From Rhodoferax sp. TH121 (GTDB lineage Bacteria; Pseudomonadota; Gammaproteobacteria; Burkholderiales; Burkholderiaceae_C): 64,000 nucleotides of DNA. The stretch lies in contig NZ_NOXW01000022.1 of the NCBI RefSeq assembly GCF_002251855.1, forward strand, positions 186,001-250,000. The letters run 5' to 3'. The notes under the pieces are model-generated. The model was not told the DNA's origin and searched no databases. It worked only from the letters and a program-made list of their open reading frames with translations. The translations under genes were made by a program, and so were the position numbers. Positions 12,166 through 57,465 of this stretch are shown piece by piece. Each line of letters begins with the position of its first letter. The stretch's first letter is position 1.

Positions 12166-13596
12166 ATGGCGGTGAGCGACGAACTGACGCTGGTGATCGA
12201 CATCGGCAAAAGCCACGCCAAGCTCCTCATGGTGGACGCACAGGGTGCGGTGCTGGAGCGCTTCGGGCGTGCTAACGCCAGTGTGCCTTCGCCCTTGGGC
12301 TACCCGGCTCTGGACGTGCAGGGCTTGGAAGACTGGATGGCGCAGACCCTGCGCGGTTGCGTGCACACCGCGCGCTGCAGCCGCGTCATCACATCCACCC
12401 ACGGTGCCGCGCTGGTGGCGCTGGGGGGGCAGGGGCTGGCCTGGGATCCGGTGGATTACGAATTTGACGGTCTGGCTCTGCACCCTCTGTTGGCCAAGGC
12501 TTTTGACGCGGCGGCTGATGGTTTTGCCAGCACCTTATCGCCGGACCTGCCGGCCGGCTTGAACGCTGCGCGCCAGCTGTTCCAGGTGCAACACCTGCAT
12601 CCTGAAGTCTGGCGGCGCACGCACTGCTTGCTGCCTTACGCGCAGTATTGGGCTTGGCGCCTGAGTGGTGTGGCGGCCAGTGAGGTCTCTTCCCTAGGTT
12701 GTCATACCCACCTGTGGCGGCCACAGGAAGGGGCGTTCTCCGCATTGGCGCAGGACCAAGGCTGGGCCGCGCTGTTTGCACCGCTGCGCTCTGCCTGGGA
12801 GGTGCTGGGTACCGTCACGCCGGAGATCGCCACGGCCTGGGGTCTGCCCGCGCACTGCCAGGTGCATGTCGGCGTGCACGACAGCAATGCCTGCTTGGCG
12901 CGTTACCTGGACGCGTCGGAGGTGGATGCTTCGGCGCTAACCGTGGTGTCCTCCGGCACCTGGACCGTGCTGATGGCGCCCGGCGCGCCCACGGCCAGCC
13001 TACAGGCCGAGCGCGACATGCTGGCCAATGTGGATGTGCTGGGCCGCGCAACGCCCACGGCCCGCTTCATGGGCGGGCGGGAGTTCGCGCATCTGCTGGA
13101 CGGGGCATCGCCCGATGCCGGTACGCTGGACGATGTGCAAGCGCTGGTGGACTCCGCCACGCTGGCCATGCCTTCATTTGCCGAGCATGGCGGCCCATTC
13201 ATGGGGCGGCAGGGAATGATCCTGCGTGAGGGCAAGCCCTTGCCAGTCGCTCTGCCGCATGGCCAGCGCGCAGCCTTGGCTGCGCTGTACTGCGCCCAGA
13301 CCACCGCCTGGCTGGTGGAGCGGCTTTGGGACGGCGTGGCATTGCCGCGCACTGTGGTGCTGGAAGGGCCGTTGGCCCAAAACGCCTTGTACCTGGCGCT
13401 GCTGCAGGCGCTGCTGCCCCAGGCCCGCTGTCTGGCCAGCCATGATGCGATGGAAGGCACCGCGCGCGGCACCTGGCTGCTGGCGCGTTGGGGCGACCCG
13501 GCGGCAGCCGCCACCACGGCCCTTGCGCCGGTGGAGGCCGCGCCGGTGCGCGGCTTGCCGGCCTACCACGCGCAGTGGATCGCTAGCGCAGCGTAA
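12166..13596 (+). CDS. rhaK: L-rhamnulokinase (FGGY family)
   Basis: RhaK phosphorylates L-rhamnulose before aldolase cleavage. The 476-residue protein starts with the phosphate-binding loop LVIDIGKSHAKLL of the FGGY/actin-like ATPase fold. A central HVGVHDSNA block places a likely catalytic Asp, and SSGTWTVL matches the second-domain ATP region. The start at 12166 follows rhaM by four bases. It is the last gene of the operon. Its 3' end overlaps the convergent secreted-protein gene by 14 bases. In Rhizobium, RhaK is also needed for rhamnose uptake; whether that holds here is unknown. Confidence 0.9.
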   Translation: MAVSDELTLVIDIGKSHAKLLMVDAQGAVLERFGRANASVPSPLGYPALDVQGLEDWMAQTLRGCVHTARCSRVITSTHGAALVALGGQGLAWDPVDYEFDGLALHPLLAKAFDAAADGFASTLSPDLPAGLNAARQLFQVQHLHPEVWRRTHCLLPYAQYWAWRLSGVAASEVSSLGCHTHLWRPQEGAFSALAQDQGWAALFAPLRSAWEVLGTVTPEIATAWGLPAHCQVHVGVHDSNACLARYLDASEVDASALTVVSSGTWTVLMAPGAPTASLQAERDMLANVDVLGRATPTARFMGGREFAHLLDGASPDAGTLDDVQALVDSATLAMPSFAEHGGPFMGRQGMILREGKPLPVALPHGQRAALAALYCAQTTAWLVERLWDGVALPRTVVLEGPLAQNALYLALLQALLPQARCLASHDAMEGTARGTWLLARWGDPAAAATTALAPVEAAPVRGLPAYHAQWIASAA

Positions 13597-14215
13597 CGCG
13601 CACCTGCACCTCGGTGCGGGTTTGGCCACTCTGCTGCTGCGCGCCGGTCAGGCCGCTGTTGCTGGCCTGGCTGTTTTGTTCTGACTCGCCCACCGTGGTC
13701 CATTCGTCCAGCGGCAGTGCCAGCACACTGCTGGCCCCTGCATTCGTTTGCGCCCCCGGAACGGTATTGCCACTGCGCAGGGCTTGCTGCGCCGCCAGGT
13801 CCAGCTCTACCAGGGTGCCACCGTCCCAGCGCGGCGTGGCGCTGAAGCCCGTCCCGGCTTCCAGCAGCACAGTGCCCACGGTAGTCACCACGCGGCCATT
13901 GCGCACAAAGCCCTGCAGCAGGCGGATGGGCGTGGTGGTCTGCGGCATCAGACGCACTGGGCGGCCATTGAGTACCAGTGCCTGCTGCGTGGCTGTGCCG
14001 CTGCTGCGCGACTGGTTCATCTGCACCCCGGGACGGCTGCCCAACTCCACTCCGCTGCGCTGGCTGTCGTCTGACTGCACCTGGCGCACTTCGATCAGCA
14101 GGTTACGCAGTGGAAGGGGCGACTGTTTTGCTACTAAATCAGGAACTGCTTGCGCATATGCAACGAGGGCTAGAGGCCAAAAAGACGCATAAATGAGGGC
14201 GTGACGGCGTTTCAT
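13583..14215 (-). CDS. Secreted protein of unknown function with a repeat-encoded signal peptide
   Basis: The 210-residue protein has a signal peptide (about residues 1-21, cleavage near AYA-QA) and a mature part rich in Gln, Ser, Thr and Gly. LLIEVRQVQSDDSQ near the N-terminus and a following beta-rich stretch (GRVVTTVGTVLLEAGTGF) vaguely recall the short beta domains of secretins, but the match is too weak to name. Residues about 7-30 are encoded by the reverse strand of a dispersed-repeat copy (14127-14193). The start ATG overlaps the stop of the lrp-type gene by four bases, so they form one unit. Its 3' end overlaps rhaK by 14 bases. Confidence 0.7.
   Translation of the reverse strand: MKRRHALIYASFWPLALVAYAQAVPDLVAKQSPLPLRNLLIEVRQVQSDDSQRSGVELGSRPGVQMNQSRSSGTATQQALVLNGRPVRLMPQTTTPIRLLQGFVRNGRVVTTVGTVLLEAGTGFSATPRWDGGTLVELDLAAQQALRSGNTVPGAQTNAGASSVLALPLDEWTTVGESEQNSQASNSGLTGAQQQSGQTRTEVQVRVTLR
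14127..14193 (+). repeat. Dispersed repeat, copy 2 (encodes a signal peptide on the opposite strand)
   Basis: The copy shows GCTACTAAATCAGGAACTGC, then TTGCGCATATGCAACGAG and GGCTAGAGGCC. Its reverse strand is in frame within the signal peptide of the minus-strand secreted protein. Confidence 0.85.
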
Positions 14216-14718
14216 GGGCGGCTCCGGGTCGTGGGCGTGGGGGCGGGCTGCAAGTGACCCAACGGTAGCGCGCTGCTGGCCTTGACCTCGCCCAGCGAGA
14301 AGCTGGTGTGCAGGTCTTTCACATTGGGCAGGTTGATGAGCACCTCGCGCGCGAACTGGCTGAAGGTGTTGAGGTCGCGGCTCACGACTTGTAGCTCGAA
14401 GGTACCGGTGCCGCTGATGTAGTGACAGCTGATGACCTCGGGCAGTTCGCGGATGGCCTCTTCCAGCCCGTGTAGCACATCACCGCTGTTGCGGTTGGCG
14501 TCCAGCCGCACGAAGGCCAGCACGCCCAGGCCCATCTTGTGGCGGTTGATCTCGGCGCGGTAGCCGGTGATGAAGCCGTTTTCCTCCAGCGCCTTGACGC
14601 GGCGCCAGCAGGGCGCCGCACTCAGGCCCACGCGGGTAGCCAGCTCGGCGTTGCTCAGGCGCCCATCGTCCTGCAACTCTTTCAGGATGGCGAGGTCAAA
14701 ACGATCGAGTGTTTCCAT
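14212..14718 (-). CDS. Lrp/AsnC-family transcriptional regulator
   Basis: Lrp/AsnC regulators sense amino acids or related acids. The 168-residue frame has an N-terminal HTH (LDRFDLAILKELQDDGRLSN, then LATRVGLSAAPCWRRVKALE) and a C-terminal RAM effector domain (VISCHYISGTGTFELQVV). The ATG at 14718 places METLDRFDLAIL at the usual family start; an ATG three codons upstream is equally possible. It diverges from the indolepyruvate ferredoxin oxidoreductase gene across about 120 bases and may regulate it in response to aromatic amino acids or keto acids. That is inference from position. Confidence 0.9.
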   Translation of the reverse strand: METLDRFDLAILKELQDDGRLSNAELATRVGLSAAPCWRRVKALEENGFITGYRAEINRHKMGLGVLAFVRLDANRNSGDVLHGLEEAIRELPEVISCHYISGTGTFELQVVSRDLNTFSQFAREVLINLPNVKDLHTSFSLGEVKASSALPLGHLQPAPTPTTRSRP

Positions 14719-14836
14719 AAGTTGCATTATGGAGAAAGATTCATTCTTTGAAACCCAGTTTGAAGGCAAAGAAAGCAAAGACATATCCGGGCCAGACGCC
14801 TACACTTTGCGCACAACCATAACGGAGACACGCATC

Positions 14837-38896: not shown

Positions 38897-40150
38897 ATGG
38901 CTTCTGAGCATGCAGCCGTCGGTTTGGGCGGAGCCAAGGAAATGACGCTGGGCGGATCAAAGGAGATGACGCTGGGCGGATCAAAGGAGATGACGCTGGG
39001 CGTCATGGGCGGTGGCCAGTTGGGACGCATGTTTGCCCATGCCGCCCAGCAAATGGGGTTTTTCACCGCGGTGCTGGACCCGGATGCCAACAGCCCGGCC
39101 GGGCGCATCAGCCACCACCATGTGCAGACGGCCTACACCGACCCTGCGGGGCTGGCCCGGCTGGCCGAGGTGTCGGCGGCTGTCACCACCGAGTTTGAGA
39201 ATGTGCCCGCCCAAGCGCTGACGCAGCTGGCGCAGAGCCGCCCCGTGGCGCCCAGTGGTGCCGCTGTGGCCATTGCCCAAGACCGTGCGGCCGAGAAGGC
39301 GCACTTTGTGAAATGTGGCGTGCCGTGTGCGCCCTATGCCGTGATTGAAACAGCCGAGCAGCTGGCTGCCGTCGATGCCAACCTGCTGCCCGGAATTATG
39401 AAAACTGCCCGCATGGGCTACGACGGCAAGGGCCAGGTGCGCGTGAAGACGCTGGCAGAGCTGGCCGCCGCCTGGGCCGACTTGGGCGGCGTGCCCTGCG
39501 TGCTGGAGAAGATGCTGCCGCTGGCGCTGGAGTGCTCGGTCATCGTGGCGCGCGGTGCCGACGGTGCGTGTGTGAACCTGCCGGTACAGCGCAACCTGCA
39601 CCGCGATGGCATCCTGGCGGTGACCGAGGTGTATGAAGGAAATCTGCCGCCAGCCCTCGCCGAACGTGCGGTAGCAGCTGCAAAATCGATAGCGGAGGGT
39701 GTGCAGTACGTGGGCGTGCTGTGCGTGGAATTCTTTGTGCTGGACGAAAGCCACCCTGCCGCTGCCGGCCTGGGCGGCCTGGTGGTGAACGAGATGGCGC
39801 CACGCCCGCACAACAGCGGCCACTACAGCATGGATGCCTGCGATGTGTCGCAGTTCCACCTGCAGGTGCGCACGCTGGCGGGGCTGCCGCTGGTGCAGCC
39901 GCGCCAGCACAGCCCGGTCCTCATGCTCAATCTGCTGGGCGACATTTGGCCCAACGAAGGGCGTGACGGCGGTGTGCCTGACTGGGCCGCCGTGCTGGCC
40001 CTGCCCGGCACCCATCTGCACCTCTATGGCAAGCTGGACGCCAAGAAGGGCCGCAAGATGGGCCACCTCAACATCACCGGCGCTACGGTGGAAGGCGTGC
40101 GCGCCACCGCGCTGGAGGCCGCGCGCATCCTCGGCATTGCCGCGTTTTGA
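38897..40150 (+). CDS. purK: N5-carboxyaminoimidazole ribonucleotide synthase
   Basis: PurK, an ATP-grasp enzyme, carboxylates AIR with bicarbonate. The 417-residue frame starts directly after purE. The family core begins at about residue 35 (GVMGGGQLGRMF) and includes MGYDGKGQ and NEMAPRPHNSGHYS. The first 34 residues are unusual: residues 11-34 are three copies of GG(A/S)KEMTL from a 24-bp tandem repeat. Each copy contains an ATG preceded by AAGGAA or AAAGGAG, so the real start may be at 38897, 38942, 38966 or 38990. A reversed copy of the dispersed repeat lies in frame at 39643-39694. Confidence 0.94.
   Translation: MASEHAAVGLGGAKEMTLGGSKEMTLGGSKEMTLGVMGGGQLGRMFAHAAQQMGFFTAVLDPDANSPAGRISHHHVQTAYTDPAGLARLAEVSAAVTTEFENVPAQALTQLAQSRPVAPSGAAVAIAQDRAAEKAHFVKCGVPCAPYAVIETAEQLAAVDANLLPGIMKTARMGYDGKGQVRVKTLAELAAAWADLGGVPCVLEKMLPLALECSVIVARGADGACVNLPVQRNLHRDGILAVTEVYEGNLPPALAERAVAAAKSIAEGVQYVGVLCVEFFVLDESHPAAAGLGGLVVNEMAPRPHNSGHYSMDACDVSQFHLQVRTLAGLPLVQPRQHSPVLMLNLLGDIWPNEGRDGGVPDWAAVLALPGTHLHLYGKLDAKKGRKMGHLNITGATVEGVRATALEAARILGIAAF
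38927..38998 (+). repeat. Three 24-bp tandem repeats at the start of purK
   Basis: Units lie at 38927-38950, 38951-38974 and 38975-38998. Units 2 and 3 are identical; unit 1 differs at three or so positions. Each encodes GG(A/S)KEMTL, and the sequence MTLG at the end of each unit resembles a native PurK start. Confidence 0.95.
39643..39694 (-). repeat. Degenerate dispersed repeat inside purK
   Basis: On the minus strand it reads GCTATCGATTTTGCAGCTGC, then CCGCA and GAGGGCTGGCGGC, in the order of the repeat. It is translated in frame as part of PurK. Confidence 0.5.
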
Positions 40151-40162
40151 ACCCGCAGTACC

Positions 40163-41224
40163 ATGATCGTGTCCGCCTACCAGTTTGCCGACGGTGTGGA
40201 GCTTGCTCCTGATTCGATAGCTGCTTGCGCAGATGCCGTGAGGGATGGGGGGCTGATTGGCTTGCCAACCGAGACTGTGTATGGCCTGGGTGCGGATGCC
40301 TCCGACCCGGTGGCTGTGGGCAAAATTTTTGCGGCCAAGGGCCGCCCGGCCGACCACCCGCTGATCGTGCATGTGGCTGCGTTTGACGGTGGCATGGGCG
40401 GGGTGGCGCACTACTGTGCGCGCGTGCCGGCCTTTGCGCAGCAGCTCATGGCCGCCTTCTGGCCGGGGCCGCTCACGCTGATCCTGCCGCGCCGCGACGG
40501 CGTGGGTGCGGCGGCCGCCGGTGGGCAGGACAGCATTGGCCTGCGTTGCCCGGCACATCCGGTGGCGCAGGCACTCTTGGCTGCGCTGCGCAAGCCCACC
40601 GACGGTGCGCGCGAGGTCTGGGGCGTTGCCGCGCCCAGCGCCAATAAGTTTGGCCGCGTGAGCCCGACCACGGCCGCGCATGTGCACGACGAGTTTGGCG
40701 ACGAATTGCTGATCCTGGACGGTGGCCCCTGCGAGGTTGGTATCGAGTCCACCATCATCGACTGCACGCGCGGCGCTCCGGTGCTGCTGCGCCCCGGCGC
40801 CATCACCGCAGCCCAGGTGATCGATGCCTGTGGCCGCCAGTTGCTATCGAAAGAAGAGCTGGACGCGCAGAGTCAACCAGGGCCTCGGGCCTCTGGGACA
40901 TTGGAGTCACACTACGCGCCCAGCGCCACCGTGCGCCTGATGGACGCCAAGGCGCTGCAGGCTGCATTGGACCTGCTGGCCAGCGCCCAGCCGCCGGACG
41001 CACGCCCCACCATTGCGCTCTACCACCGCAGCCCTCTGCACGTGCGCTCGCCCCTGGTGGCGGCCCACCGCATGCCCAGCCATGCCCAGCCTGCCGCACA
41101 CGAGCTGTTTGCCAAGCTGCGCGAGATGGACGCGCAGGGCGTTAAGCTGATCTGGGTGGAGGCCCCGCCCGATGCGCCCGAGTGGGACGGTGTGCGCGAT
41201 CGCCTGACGCGCGCGGCGGCCTGA
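40163..41224 (+). CDS. tsaC: L-threonylcarbamoyladenylate synthase (Sua5/TsaC type)
   Basis: The enzyme makes threonylcarbamoyl-AMP, the first step of tRNA t6A modification. The 353-residue protein is the long Sua5 form. A YrdC domain (about 10-210) has LIGLPTETVYGLGADA and SANKFGRVSPT. After a linker comes a C-terminal Sua5 domain (about 245-350). Two copies of the dispersed repeat are in frame, one at the N-terminus (DSIAACADA) and one in the interdomain linker. It starts 12 bases after purK. tsaB, from the same pathway, lies 1.6 kb downstream. Confidence 0.93.
   Translation: MIVSAYQFADGVELAPDSIAACADAVRDGGLIGLPTETVYGLGADASDPVAVGKIFAAKGRPADHPLIVHVAAFDGGMGGVAHYCARVPAFAQQLMAAFWPGPLTLILPRRDGVGAAAAGGQDSIGLRCPAHPVAQALLAALRKPTDGAREVWGVAAPSANKFGRVSPTTAAHVHDEFGDELLILDGGPCEVGIESTIIDCTRGAPVLLRPGAITAAQVIDACGRQLLSKEELDAQSQPGPRASGTLESHYAPSATVRLMDAKALQAALDLLASAQPPDARPTIALYHRSPLHVRSPLVAAHRMPSHAQPAAHELFAKLREMDAQGVKLIWVEAPPDAPEWDGVRDRLTRAAA
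40205..40247 (+). repeat. Dispersed repeat core in the N-terminal part of tsaC
   Basis: GATAGCTGCTTGCGCA at 40216-40231 matches the repeat core exactly and is preceded by GCTCCTGATTC. It is translated as part of TsaC. Confidence 0.6.
40841..40899 (+). repeat. Degenerate dispersed repeat in the tsaC interdomain linker
   Basis: TTGCTATC, AGAGCTG, CGCGCA and GGGCCTCGGGCC occur in the order and spacing of the repeat. The stretch encodes the linker between the YrdC and Sua5 domains. Confidence 0.5.
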
Positions 41225-42721: not shown

Positions 42722-42778
42722 AGGGCTCGCCTCGTAGGCCGCCGTCTGCACATGCATGCGCAATTGCGGAAGGTCTTC

Positions 42779-42843
42779 GCTCCTAAATTGGGAGCTATTT
42801 ACGCAGTATTGACGAGGGCTAGAGGCCCATTTCTCTTAAAAAC
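42779..42843 (+). repeat. Dispersed repeat forming the tsaB leader
   Basis: GCTCC-N7-GGAGC (a compensated form of the usual GCTAT/ATAGC hairpin), ACGCAGTATT and GAGGGCTAGAGGCCC end in AAAAAC directly at the tsaB ATG. No separate ribosome site is visible. Confidence 0.85.
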
Positions 42844-43578
42844 ATGAACCTGCTGGCCATTGATTCCGGAACCGAGCATCTGTCCATCGCGGTCTGCCGT
42901 GGTGCGGCGGTGTGGCAGTACGCCGGGGCGGGTGGTGCCCGCGCCTCCACCGACCTGATTGCTGGCGTGCTGGACCTGCTGGCCCAGGCCGAGCTGCCCA
43001 TGGCATTGCTGGATGCGATGGCCTTTGGCTCCGGGCCAGGGTCGTTTACCGGCTTGCGCACCGCCTGCTCGGTGGTGCAGGGGCTGGCGTTTGGCGCCAA
43101 CGTGCCGGTGTTGCCCATGGACTCGCTGCTGGCCGTGGCCGAGGACGCGCGCCAGTTGGCAGCGCCCGATACCGCCACCCTGCAAGTGTTGGCGCTGTTG
43201 GATGCACGCATGGACGAGGTGTACGCCGCGCACTATGCCTATGCCCACGGGCAGTGGCGCGTGTTGCAGCCCAGCGCGCTGGTGCGCCCCGAGCATGTGC
43301 AGCTGCCAGCGCCGGCTGCGGGCCTGGGCCCGCTGTTTGTGGCGGGCAATGTGTTTGCCGTGTATGCGGACCGCCTGCCTGCGGCCGTGCAGCAGGGCGG
43401 CACGGTGGTGCCGGCCCTGCCAACGGCCGCTGCCATGCTGCGCTTGGCGCCCGCCCTGTTGGCTGCGGGCCTGGCGATCGACGCGGCCCACGCCATGCCG
43501 AGCTACATCCGTGACAAGGTGGCCAAAACCACCGCCGAGCGCCTGGCTGAAAAAGCTGCGGCGGCATCTGCTGCCTGA
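42844..43578 (+). CDS. tsaB: tRNA threonylcarbamoyladenosine biosynthesis protein TsaB
   Basis: TsaB supports TsaD in transferring the threonylcarbamoyl group to tRNA. The 244-residue protein has the ASKHA-fold start NLLAIDSGTEHLSIAV and the conserved FGSGPGSFTGLRTACSVVQGLA. Its C-terminal part contains LDARMDEVYAA. The leader is a dispersed-repeat copy that reaches to the ATG. rimI follows after ten bases, as in many proteobacteria. Confidence 0.95.
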   Translation: MNLLAIDSGTEHLSIAVCRGAAVWQYAGAGGARASTDLIAGVLDLLAQAELPMALLDAMAFGSGPGSFTGLRTACSVVQGLAFGANVPVLPMDSLLAVAEDARQLAAPDTATLQVLALLDARMDEVYAAHYAYAHGQWRVLQPSALVRPEHVQLPAPAAGLGPLFVAGNVFAVYADRLPAAVQQGGTVVPALPTAAAMLRLAPALLAAGLAIDAAHAMPSYIRDKVAKTTAERLAEKAAAASAA

Positions 43579-47689: not shown

Positions 47690-49225
47690 ATGTCCATGCT
47701 GCCACCCGAATTCCAGAGCCGACGTGCCTTTTTGCGCCGCAGCGGCCAGCTTGCGCTGAGCGGCACCGCGCTGCCTTTTGCGCTCAACCTGGCCGCCATT
47801 GGCGAGGCCGCCGCCTTCAACGCACCGGCCGGGGACTACAAGGCCCTGGTCTGCGTGTTTTTGTTTGGCGGCAATGACTACGCCAATACCGTCGTGGCCT
47901 ACGACGACCCGAGCTACAACCAGTACAGCACCATCCGCGGTGGTGGCGCCGGGCAAACCGCTGGTGGCATTGCGCTGGCCAAGGCGGCGCTCACGCCCAC
48001 GCGCCTGGTTCCTCTCACACCGCCGGTGGACACGCTGGGTGCCACGACCCGCGAGTACGCGCTGCACCCGGCCATGACCGGCTTGGCCAATCTGTTCAAC
48101 ACCGGCAAGGCGGCGGTGCAGCTCAATGTGGGGCCGCTGGTGGTGCCGCTCACGCGCGCCCAGTACAACAACAGCAACCGCACGCTCTACCCGCGCCCGC
48201 CGCAGCTGTTTTCGCACAACGACCAGCAGTCGCTGTGGCAGTCGTCCTCGCCCGAAGGTTCCAAAGTGGGCTGGGGCGGCAATATGGGGGATGTGGTGCT
48301 GCAAAACAGCCTCAACAGCAATTCGCTGTTCAGCTGCATGTCGGTGTCGGGCAACGCGGTCTTCCTCGCGGGGGACACGGCCTTGCAGTACCAGGTCAGC
48401 ACCTCGGGCGCCATCAAAATCCGGCCTGCTACGGACACAACTGTCTACGGCTCGTCGTCGGTGCGCAGCACCATTGACAGCTTGATCCGCCAGTCCCGCA
48501 CCCACAAGCTGGAGAACGAATACAACGTGGTGACGGCGCGGGCGCTGGCGGCTGAGGCCTCGGTGACGAATGCGCTGGCCTTGAGCCCGCCAGCCTTCGG
48601 AACCGCGCCCAATCTGCGCCCCTTCCAGGCCACTTTTGGCACGGATGCATTGTCGACCCAGCTGCAAATGGTGGCGCGCCTGATCAAGGGTCGCAATGTG
48701 CTGGGCGCGCGGCGCCAGGTGTTTTTTGTGTCCATGGGCGGCTTTGACCTGCACGACAACCTGGTCGCGCAGCAGGCCACCCTGATGGGCCGCCTGAGCA
48801 CGGCCATGACGGCGTTTTATGAAGCAACCAACGAGATGGGCGTGGCCAACCAGGTGACGGCGTTCACTGCATCCGACTTTGGCCGCACCCTGGCCTCCAA
48901 CGGCGATGGCTCGGACCACGGCTGGGGCAGTCACCACCTGGTGGTGGGTGGTGCGGTGAATGGACAGCGTTTCTACGGTGTGGCTCCGCCCATCAGCGTG
49001 AGCGATGCCAAGGACGCGGGCGGCAACTACCTGCCCGAGAACGCCTGGCATGTGGGCCAGGGCCGCTTGCTGCCACGCACCTCGGTCGACCAGTATGCGG
49101 CGACGCTGGCCAAGTGGTTTGGTGTGACGGACGCCGAGATGCCAGGCGTTTTGCCCAAGATCACGAACTTCGGCACGGCGGCCAGCCGGCCAGACTACCC
49201 GACCGATCTTGGGTTTATGCAATAA
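47690..49225 (+). CDS. Tat-exported DUF1501 family protein
   Basis: The 511-residue protein has a twin-arginine signal (SRRAFLRRSG at about 10-19, then a hydrophobic stretch to about 42). The DUF1501 domain, related to sulfatase/alkaline-phosphatase folds, includes VFLFGGNDYANTVV, SMGGFDLHDN and FTASDFGRTLASNGDGSDHGWG. Asp and His residues in these blocks could bind metal. It starts nine bases after the DUF1800 gene, so the two form a unit. The Tat signal suggests it is folded before export. The biological role of the pair is unknown. Confidence 0.87.
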   Translation: MSMLPPEFQSRRAFLRRSGQLALSGTALPFALNLAAIGEAAAFNAPAGDYKALVCVFLFGGNDYANTVVAYDDPSYNQYSTIRGGGAGQTAGGIALAKAALTPTRLVPLTPPVDTLGATTREYALHPAMTGLANLFNTGKAAVQLNVGPLVVPLTRAQYNNSNRTLYPRPPQLFSHNDQQSLWQSSSPEGSKVGWGGNMGDVVLQNSLNSNSLFSCMSVSGNAVFLAGDTALQYQVSTSGAIKIRPATDTTVYGSSSVRSTIDSLIRQSRTHKLENEYNVVTARALAAEASVTNALALSPPAFGTAPNLRPFQATFGTDALSTQLQMVARLIKGRNVLGARRQVFFVSMGGFDLHDNLVAQQATLMGRLSTAMTAFYEATNEMGVANQVTAFTASDFGRTLASNGDGSDHGWGSHHLVVGGAVNGQRFYGVAPPISVSDAKDAGGNYLPENAWHVGQGRLLPRTSVDQYAATLAKWFGVTDAEMPGVLPKITNFGTAASRPDYPTDLGFMQ

Positions 49226-49291
49226 GTGCTATTGATTTAGTAGCTGTTAATGCATATTTCATAAGGGTTAGAGGCCTAAATGGTTTGATTT
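49226..49291 (+). repeat. Dispersed repeat, copy after the DUF1501 gene
   Basis: GCTATTGATTTAGTAGC (hairpin), TGTTAATGCATATTTC and AGGGTTAGAGGCC fill the whole gap between two convergent stop codons. Confidence 0.85.
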
Positions 49292-49666
49292 TCAGGCTGC
49301 GGGCTTGTCGATGCCCAGTTCGGCCAGTTCGGCATCGGTGAACACGCGGGAGCGGGTGTGGAAGGCCTTGCCCTCGGGCCCTTCGAGCGAGAAGGTGCCG
49401 CCGTGACCTTCGATCACGTCGATGATGAGTTGGGTGTGTTTCCAGTATTCGTACTGGGCTTTGCCGATGTAGAACGGACTGCCGCCGATGTCGCCCAAGT
49501 ACACGTCACCGGCACCCATGGTGATTTCACCGGGCAGGTAGCAGTTGGCCGCGCTGTTGTCGCAGCAGCCTCCGCTTTGGTGGAACATCAATTCCGGGCC
49601 GTGTTTCGTTTTCAGGAAAGCCACCAGTTCCAGGGCGGCGGGGGTGGCTACTACTTTGTCGACCAT
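49292..49666 (-). CDS. DUF779 protein next to acetaldehyde dehydrogenase
   Basis: The 124-residue protein belongs to DUF779, a family usually encoded beside AcoD/ExaC-type aldehyde dehydrogenases. FHQSGGCCDNSAANCYLPGE contains a cluster of Cys residues, and GDVYLGDIGGSPFYIG follows. No signal or membrane segment is present. GGAGACAAACC precedes the ATG. It is downstream of acoD in the same direction across 286 bases of nested inverted repeats. Its function is unknown; a role in aldehyde oxidation is inferred from the pairing. Confidence 0.88.
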   Translation of the reverse strand: MVDKVVATPAALELVAFLKTKHGPELMFHQSGGCCDNSAANCYLPGEITMGAGDVYLGDIGGSPFYIGKAQYEYWKHTQLIIDVIEGHGGTFSLEGPEGKAFHTRSRVFTDAELAELGIDKPAA

Positions 49667-49714: not shown

Positions 49715-49906
49715 GTTGGCGCTCGCAGCTTCGCAGACTGTGCGGGCAGCCGCCTCTTACTGAGGTACCAGAAATCGGTGTCTGCCCGCACAGTCTACGA
49801 AGCTGGTTCGTTGGCGCACCACTTTCCGCATACCAAAAGCCACGTGGATTCCCAAGGGGAGACCGCCGATTTCTGGTACTCCAGTATGAGGTGGTCGCCC
49901 CTTGGG
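49715..49906. repeat. Nested inverted repeats between acoD and the DUF779 gene
   Basis: Three inverted pairs can be seen. 49726-49749 pairs with 49782-49805 (23 of 24 matches). 49765-49778 pairs with 49866-49879 (14 of 14, GTACCAGAAATCGG). 49851-49864 pairs with 49893-49906 (13 of 14). The first pair is bracketed by GTTGGCGC at 49715-49722 and 49810-49817. There is no gene in the stretch. It may be a miniature mobile element or a structured intercistronic RNA. Confidence 0.7.
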
Positions 49907-57369: not shown

Positions 57370-57398
57370 GTAATTGCATCTGGAAGGTAGTGCAGTTC

Positions 57399-57465
57399 GC
57401 TACTAAATCAGTAGCTTCTTGCGTATGTTCCACGCAGGCTAGAGGCCTATTTGGCTTAAAAATTA
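57399..57465 (+). repeat. Dispersed repeat between the J-like gene and uvrA
   Basis: GCTACTAAATCAGTAGC forms a perfect 6-bp hairpin. TTGCGTATGTTC, GGCTAGAGGCC and TTTGGCTTAAAAATTA follow. The final TTA is the uvrA stop codon on the minus strand. Confidence 0.88.

Follow-up and report, generated by a model that had tools for sequence, protein, structure and literature searches.

The window, the whole stretch of 64,000 nucleotides analysed from Rhodoferax sp. TH121, carries at 13583-14215 on its minus strand a gene for a probably exported protein of 210 amino acids with a secretin-like beta domain, recognized from the open reading frame, the orthologues and the predicted fold. The N-terminus of the protein reads MKRRHALIYASFWPLALVAYAQAVPDLV / MKRRHALIYASFWPLALVAYAQAVPDLVAKQSPLPLRNLLIEVRQV. 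The ATG of the gene overlaps the TGA of the gene directly upstream, an AsnC/Lrp-type regulator identified with Pfam (14212-14784, minus strand) and conserved as a neighbour both in the orthologues that bear the repeat described below and in those free of it. Pfam and NCBIfam scans of the 210-residue protein gave no family match. When the predicted fold was searched with Foldseek, secretins were the best matches (InvG, E 8.7e-7); as the mean pLDDT of the fold was 64.5 and the TM score of the InvG match only 0.30, the protein is called secretin-like with moderate confidence.

Residue properties predict a signal peptide in residues 1-23 (14147-14215, minus strand). Its n-region, MKRRHA, has a net charge of +3 and is followed by a hydrophobic core starting at residue 7, with a best 11-residue Kyte-Doolittle mean of 1.65. 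Cleavage is likely after AYA (residue 21) or AQA (residue 23), and A21 and Q22 are invariant among seven orthologues. Judged by residue properties only, the leader has the features of a Sec signal peptide: a basic n-region, an uncharged hydrophobic core (a Glu being kept in the orthologues L090 and L092) and small residues at -3 and -1.

Residues 7-30 of the leader are encoded by a copy of a dispersed repeat of about 69 bp (14127-14197, minus strand), which lies in the frame of the gene and was detected by repeat finding, DNA similarity and profile search. The sequence-only reading had placed a repeat copy, read on the reverse strand, over these residues, and its coordinates, strand and codons were correct: TGG CCT CTA GCC encodes WPLA and GCG CAA GCA encodes AQA. 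A profile constructed of 28 other copies from the same genome, with the gene copy left out, matched the window gene with 49.9 bits (E 4.8e-14) and the equivalent site in other species with up to 64.8 bits (E 1.1e-18). The same profile gave no match at E ≤ 1 over 64 loci read backwards as a reversed-sequence control. The similarity between the leader and the repeat is far beyond chance.

Full-length strong relatives of the gene were present in seven of 61 genomes, its own included, and scanning named genomes yielded 34 loci. With seven of these removed (other neighbourhood or partial) and the window and L033 added, the comparison included 29 rows spanning Rhodoferax, Curvibacter, Hylemonella and their relatives. 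The loci left out for want of an adjoining Lrp gene were L114 (Comamonadaceae bin) and L119 (Variovorax), with weak leader repeat matches (E 0.006 and 0.001, respectively), the fragment L117, L118 and L121-L123. The leader repeat is present in 19 of the 29 rows (window, L033, L090-L105 and L108; profile E 1.1e-18 to 0.011), and the other ten (L106, L107, L109-L113, L115, L116 and L120) have no profile match at E ≤ 1. The same AsnC/Lrp gene lies beside 28 of the 29 orthologues, including all ten repeat-free and 18 of the 19 repeat-bearing ones; L103 was counted among the 19 although no Lrp was found beside it. The mature proteins of the 19 repeat-bearing rows are less than 50% identical in 99 of 171 pairs. 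If gained once, the leader repeat would predate the split of these species.

In the tree, four repeat-bearing Curvibacter and Hylemonella rows form the sister group of the ten repeat-free rows (support 93/92). The topology requires two changes of repeat state, either two separate gains or a single gain followed by decay within that clade. The two changes are in keeping with the repeat having been gained in the leader more than once, by two or more independent insertions or by renewed conversion by other copies, and so is the uneven likeness of the leader copies to the profile, those of the window, L090 and L092 being much nearer to it (50-65 bits) than those of L093-L095 (24-27 bits). Against multiple gains, the 3' end CAACCAGCTATCAATTCAGGAGC is common to distant rows (L100 compared with L102, L104, L105 and L108, up to the last bases), and a single clade of the repeat-bearing rows was not rejected (p-AU 0.20). 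Repeated gain is considered possible but rather doubtful.

The leader copies differ from the other copies of the repeat in hydropathy and charge. Median hydropathy is raised to 1.27 in ten leader copies versus -0.15 in 128 other copies, the comparison covering gap-free distinct copies that passed the filters, by which nine leader rows were removed. The position of the glutamate in VEYA is acidic in two of the ten leader copies and in 88 of the 128 others; the p-value of 0.003 is optimistic and the statistics are indicative only, since the rows are related and part of the 128 copies was fetched by this frame. Over all 19 repeat-bearing rows, the VEYA codon is acidic only in L090 and L092, the acidic residue having been lost in 17. 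These are signs of selection against charge in the leader copies. Constraint on the repeat part at the DNA level was also considered and is not claimed: in the pairs below 50% identity its codon identity (0.72) exceeds that of all 175 mature windows, yet codons 2-10 reach 0.71 (in the next class 0.57 versus 0.73), so that the raised identity shows nothing special, codons 2-10 lying mostly outside the repeat and being about equally high in the most distant pairs.

The repeat could instead be a mere 5' leader or spacer, with translation starting past it and no signal peptide formed. Several copies elsewhere do occupy the gap between two adjacent ORFs, within a few bases of the stop codon on one side and the start codon on the other, according to rough ORF calls. 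In the gene studied here, however, no stop interrupts the frame across the repeat in any of the 19 rows, most of which have a basic n-region, and the aligned rows contain no ATG from the repeat to LPxRNLLIEVRQ. The spacer explanation also does not fit with the repeat-free orthologues having a leader at the same place, nor with the depletion of charge in the repeat leaders, and is regarded as improbable. The own start of L103 is uncertain because there is no ATG at the aligned start.

Counted from the start, the Ala of Ala|Gln is residue 21 in six of the seven repeat-bearing leaders measured, the seventh being without AQ, and residue 20 in three of the four repeat-free leaders measured, an earlier AQ pair being marked in the fourth. 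Up to LPxRN the leaders have 33-39 residues with the repeat (seven rows) and 28-31 without it (four rows), and in the eleven leaders measured hydropathy ranges from 1.55 to 2.70 and from 2.23 to 2.80, respectively. Leaders with the repeat are hence longer and in general less hydrophobic.

The distantly related homologues found at other loci (25-36% identity) have no repeat, and the same is true of the rows from Aquabacterium and Serpentinimonas; both have leaders that are signal-like by eye wherever the N-terminus is complete, and many leaders of the repeat-free homologues end in A-Q. Because the repeat-free distant homologues also start with signal-like leaders, export very probably predates the repeat. 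Such leaders, together with the about equal distance of Ala|Gln from the start, also make it probable that the repeat replaced an older signal instead of creating a new secreted protein.

The proposal of the sequence-only reading, that a dispersed repeat supplied an export signal, can therefore be retained in part. The repeat encodes a large part of the hydrophobic core and cleavage region, is kept in 19 of the 29 orthologues and shows the signs of selection against charge, but the idea that it created secretion is not supported, given the repeat-free homologues, the ten syntenic orthologues as well as the distant ones, with leaders that are signal-like by eye. Orthologues whose leader differs and bears no likeness to the repeat, one of the observations named in advance as contrary to that proposal when the different signal is also the older one, do exist, but the tree does not show their ten leaders to be older: these rows may keep an older signal or may have lost the repeat by drift. 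The wider suggestion that the repeat is a general route to new secreted proteins was not borne out: among the matches listed, none of the 66 other loci inspected with the frame open looks like a signal peptide by eye. These loci comprise 26 plus 40 in-frame matches, chosen among the matches listed for long open frames or rank; the frame is probably untranslated in many cases.

The repeat is about 69 bp long and non-palindromic. Its own genome has at least 40 copies (best 40 of 150 and best 40 of 265 first-look candidates in two DNA searches), and 65 distinct copies at E ≤ 1e-4 were counted among the fetched own-genome loci and the window, which itself contains 11 copies at E ≤ 1e-4. On the minus strand, the profile detected copies at 62-132 (37.7 bits), 42774-42844 (47.0 bits), 49223-49293 (36.5 bits) and 57394-57464 (61.2 bits), the last being also one of the copies searched by DNA. 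Weak in-frame copies are present inside a PurK-like ORF (39628-39698, plus strand, 29.1 bits) and close to the beginning of a Sua5/TsaC-like ORF (40200-40270, minus strand, 26.2 bits), both ORFs being named by eye. The N-terminus of the PurK-like ORF includes three in-frame tandem units of 24 bp (GGSKEMTLG; 38925-39002). An inverted repeat of 37 nt around a 6-nt loop, with 84% complementarity, lies at 49726-49805, and is partly repeated at 49866-49900.

When the 28 copies picked by DNA similarity alone were aligned, mean column identity was 73%. The gene's sense frame has no stop in 17 of them, one antisense frame is open in 25, and the remaining four frames are open in one to five copies. With one sense and one antisense frame usually free of stops, the repeat can sit inside genes. 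In the frame of the gene the generic repeat reads approximately IFESNWPLALVEYAQAAPELIAN, with a best 11-residue hydropathy of 0.96. The consensus did not fold better than shuffled sequences (fold z +0.77) and has no inverted ends by eye, and no Rfam match over the gathering threshold was found in the window. A covarying 3' hairpin, its arms complementary by eye, was rejected, as 153 of 500 shuffles paired at least as well, RNAalifold gave two pairs, and single-strand folding was no better than with shuffled sequences.

A search with the 69-nt consensus found the repeat in 19 of the 61 genomes, which were 19 of the 37 of the same genus and none of the 24 from other families of the order. In a wider sample of the family, 47 of 200 genomes and 39 of 141 genera had the repeat. 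This wide occurrence, with strong orthologues of the gene in only seven of the same 61 genomes, speaks against the family having arisen from the signal sequence of this gene and then spread. The profile, too, scores many other copies above the gene copy, a result biased by those copies having built it, while the gene copy is the best own-genome match (78.8 bits) to a quick consensus that was built from copies found with the gene copy. An origin of the family in this gene is very improbable. Signal peptides converge easily at the protein level, but a chance likeness of a leucine- and alanine-rich leader to the repeat can practically be dismissed, with E-values down to 1e-18 at the DNA level and no match in reversed sequence; it is refuted for the stronger rows, and the weakest (E 0.001-0.011) rest also on position and alignment.

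In-frame copies occur in other genes as well; doubtful ORFs (for example L008) were left out of the evidence on copies and ORFs. Eight of the 28 DNA-picked copies lie in frame within ORFs that have coding-like flanks on both sides, four in sense and four in antisense orientation. Six of these eight ORFs were scanned with NCBIfam, of which GluQRS, HpnE, AcnA and ComEC scored above the cut-offs; WaaA and enoyl-CoA hydratase were clear by E-value and below the cut-offs. The copies in AcnA and in the scanned ComEC are antisense. In ProA and CoaBC, both above the NCBIfam cut-offs, in-frame copies were found using the gene copy as query. In comparison to PDB relatives, the repeat insert adds 14 residues in ProA, 18 in AcnA and none in CoaBC (PDB 6tgv). 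Two ComEC-like ORFs, L030 and L171 (the latter one of the 66 loci inspected), have by eye the hydrophobic sense frame in the N-terminal membrane region, L030 also with an antisense copy further on.

The in-frame insert of ProA (L006, L174-L196) is polymorphic, being present in the own genome and several relatives and absent from close relatives such as G001 and G007. Of 20 ProA loci 17 were read: five were occupied (G000, G009 and G015, and in decayed form G003 and G022), 11 empty and one in between, and comparison of occupied and empty sites did not show a clean duplication of the target site, which together with terminal inverted repeats characterizes MITEs. The pattern suggests precise loss or repeated gain. 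A gene resembling rRNA methyltransferases (SpoU/TrmH; PDB relative at E 4.9e-23, under the NCBIfam cut-off) has the same frame at one place in nine of the 66 loci, from nine genomes (L154, L161, L162, L132, L134, L218, L227, L237 and L238), and is apparently a second old domestication, in a soluble enzyme.

In CoaBC and near the N-terminus of ProA, where a second, weaker repeat match (27.2 bits) is ungapped against PDB 4ghk, repeat-like DNA lies on native codons in register and without change of length. By eye, the signal peptide and the PurK-, Sua5- and Fmt-like ORFs of the window resemble these cases. It is conceivable, though unlikely, that the repeat not only inserts but also overwrites coding sequence in register. 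If so, overwriting would point to templated replacement, by conversion from dispersed copies or by drive, and the signal peptide would be one patched site. DNA uptake sequences are an example of such drive. At L216 in G029, a GpsA-like gene, named by eye, seems to take its start codon and initial residues (M-K-I) from a repeat copy.

Taken as a whole, the data make it quite likely that a repeat copy entered the signal-peptide region of a secretin-like protein that was already being exported, and took over its core and cleavage region. In this scenario, a presumably mobile, non-palindromic repeat of about 69 bp would have been dispersed through the Rhodoferax/Curvibacter branch as well as further genera of the family, and in an ancestor of the Rhodoferax-like, probably also the Curvibacter delicatus-like, lineages one copy would have landed in the signal-peptide region of the exported protein encoded behind the AsnC/Lrp regulator. 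Its sense frame, about IFESNWPLALVEYAQAAPELIAN, would have come to encode most of the hydrophobic core together with the cleavage region, by replacement rather than by insertion plus trimming. The distance from the start to Ala|Gln would thereby have remained almost unchanged and the stretch after Ala|Gln become longer by a few residues, the basic n-region (M-K/N-R-R) staying mostly outside the repeat. Later point changes, from VEYA to VAYA, AVYA and others, may then have removed the charge, and the outcome would be a signal of the Sec type, with cleavage close to AYA|Q or AQA|V.

Among known systems, REP/RAYT elements (PMC2817692) are similar in their high copy number and in having many copies between genes. 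The repeat differs from the elements described there in being longer and in lacking a hairpin and a GTAG/GTGG head in its consensus, and of the features that characterize REP/RAYT systems, a short palindrome, the GTAG/GTGG head and a cognate RAYT, its sequence has neither the palindrome nor the head. The 3.3-kb locus of the only Y1-type transposase match of the genome, L244, also contains a repeat copy (35.6 bits), which is not striking at such a copy number; this transposase is possibly a candidate for a RAYT-like helper.

The Rickettsia palindromic elements, which according to a 2024 review (PMC10969869) are about 150 bp long and lie in frame in many genes, are likewise short repeats with open frames inserted in frame in unrelated protein-coding genes. 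The present repeat is unlike them in its length (about 69 versus about 150 bp), in having no palindrome or stable hairpin, in its host clade and in the signal-peptide case. The RU-2/YAPL element is also termed palindromic (PMC2229807). Because the repeat is not palindromic, it was assigned neither to the Rickettsia palindromic elements nor to RU-2, though it works like them. No description of the repeat family in Comamonadaceae was found in the literature, among the matches listed; the results suggest that Comamonadaceae-type genomes harbour a repeat family that is compatible with coding and alters conserved enzymes.

The direct precedent is YPO1552 of Yersinia, in which the RU-2/YAPL repeat forms part of the predicted signal peptide (Delihas 2007, PMC2759123). 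As described in that paper, the repeat provides residues 1-30 of a predicted signal of residues 1-41 in Y. pestis and Y. pseudotuberculosis, and the homologues in other genera carry unrelated signals. In comparison to YPO1552 as reported there, the repeat studied here contributes both core and cleavage region, has persisted in 19 orthologues, shows signs of selection and derives from an element that is not palindromic. The locus would be a bacterial example of a targeting signal made from repeat DNA that can be followed across many species. Since orthologues with and without the repeat are found at one and the same locus, the replacement of a signal peptide by a dispersed repeat is directly testable.
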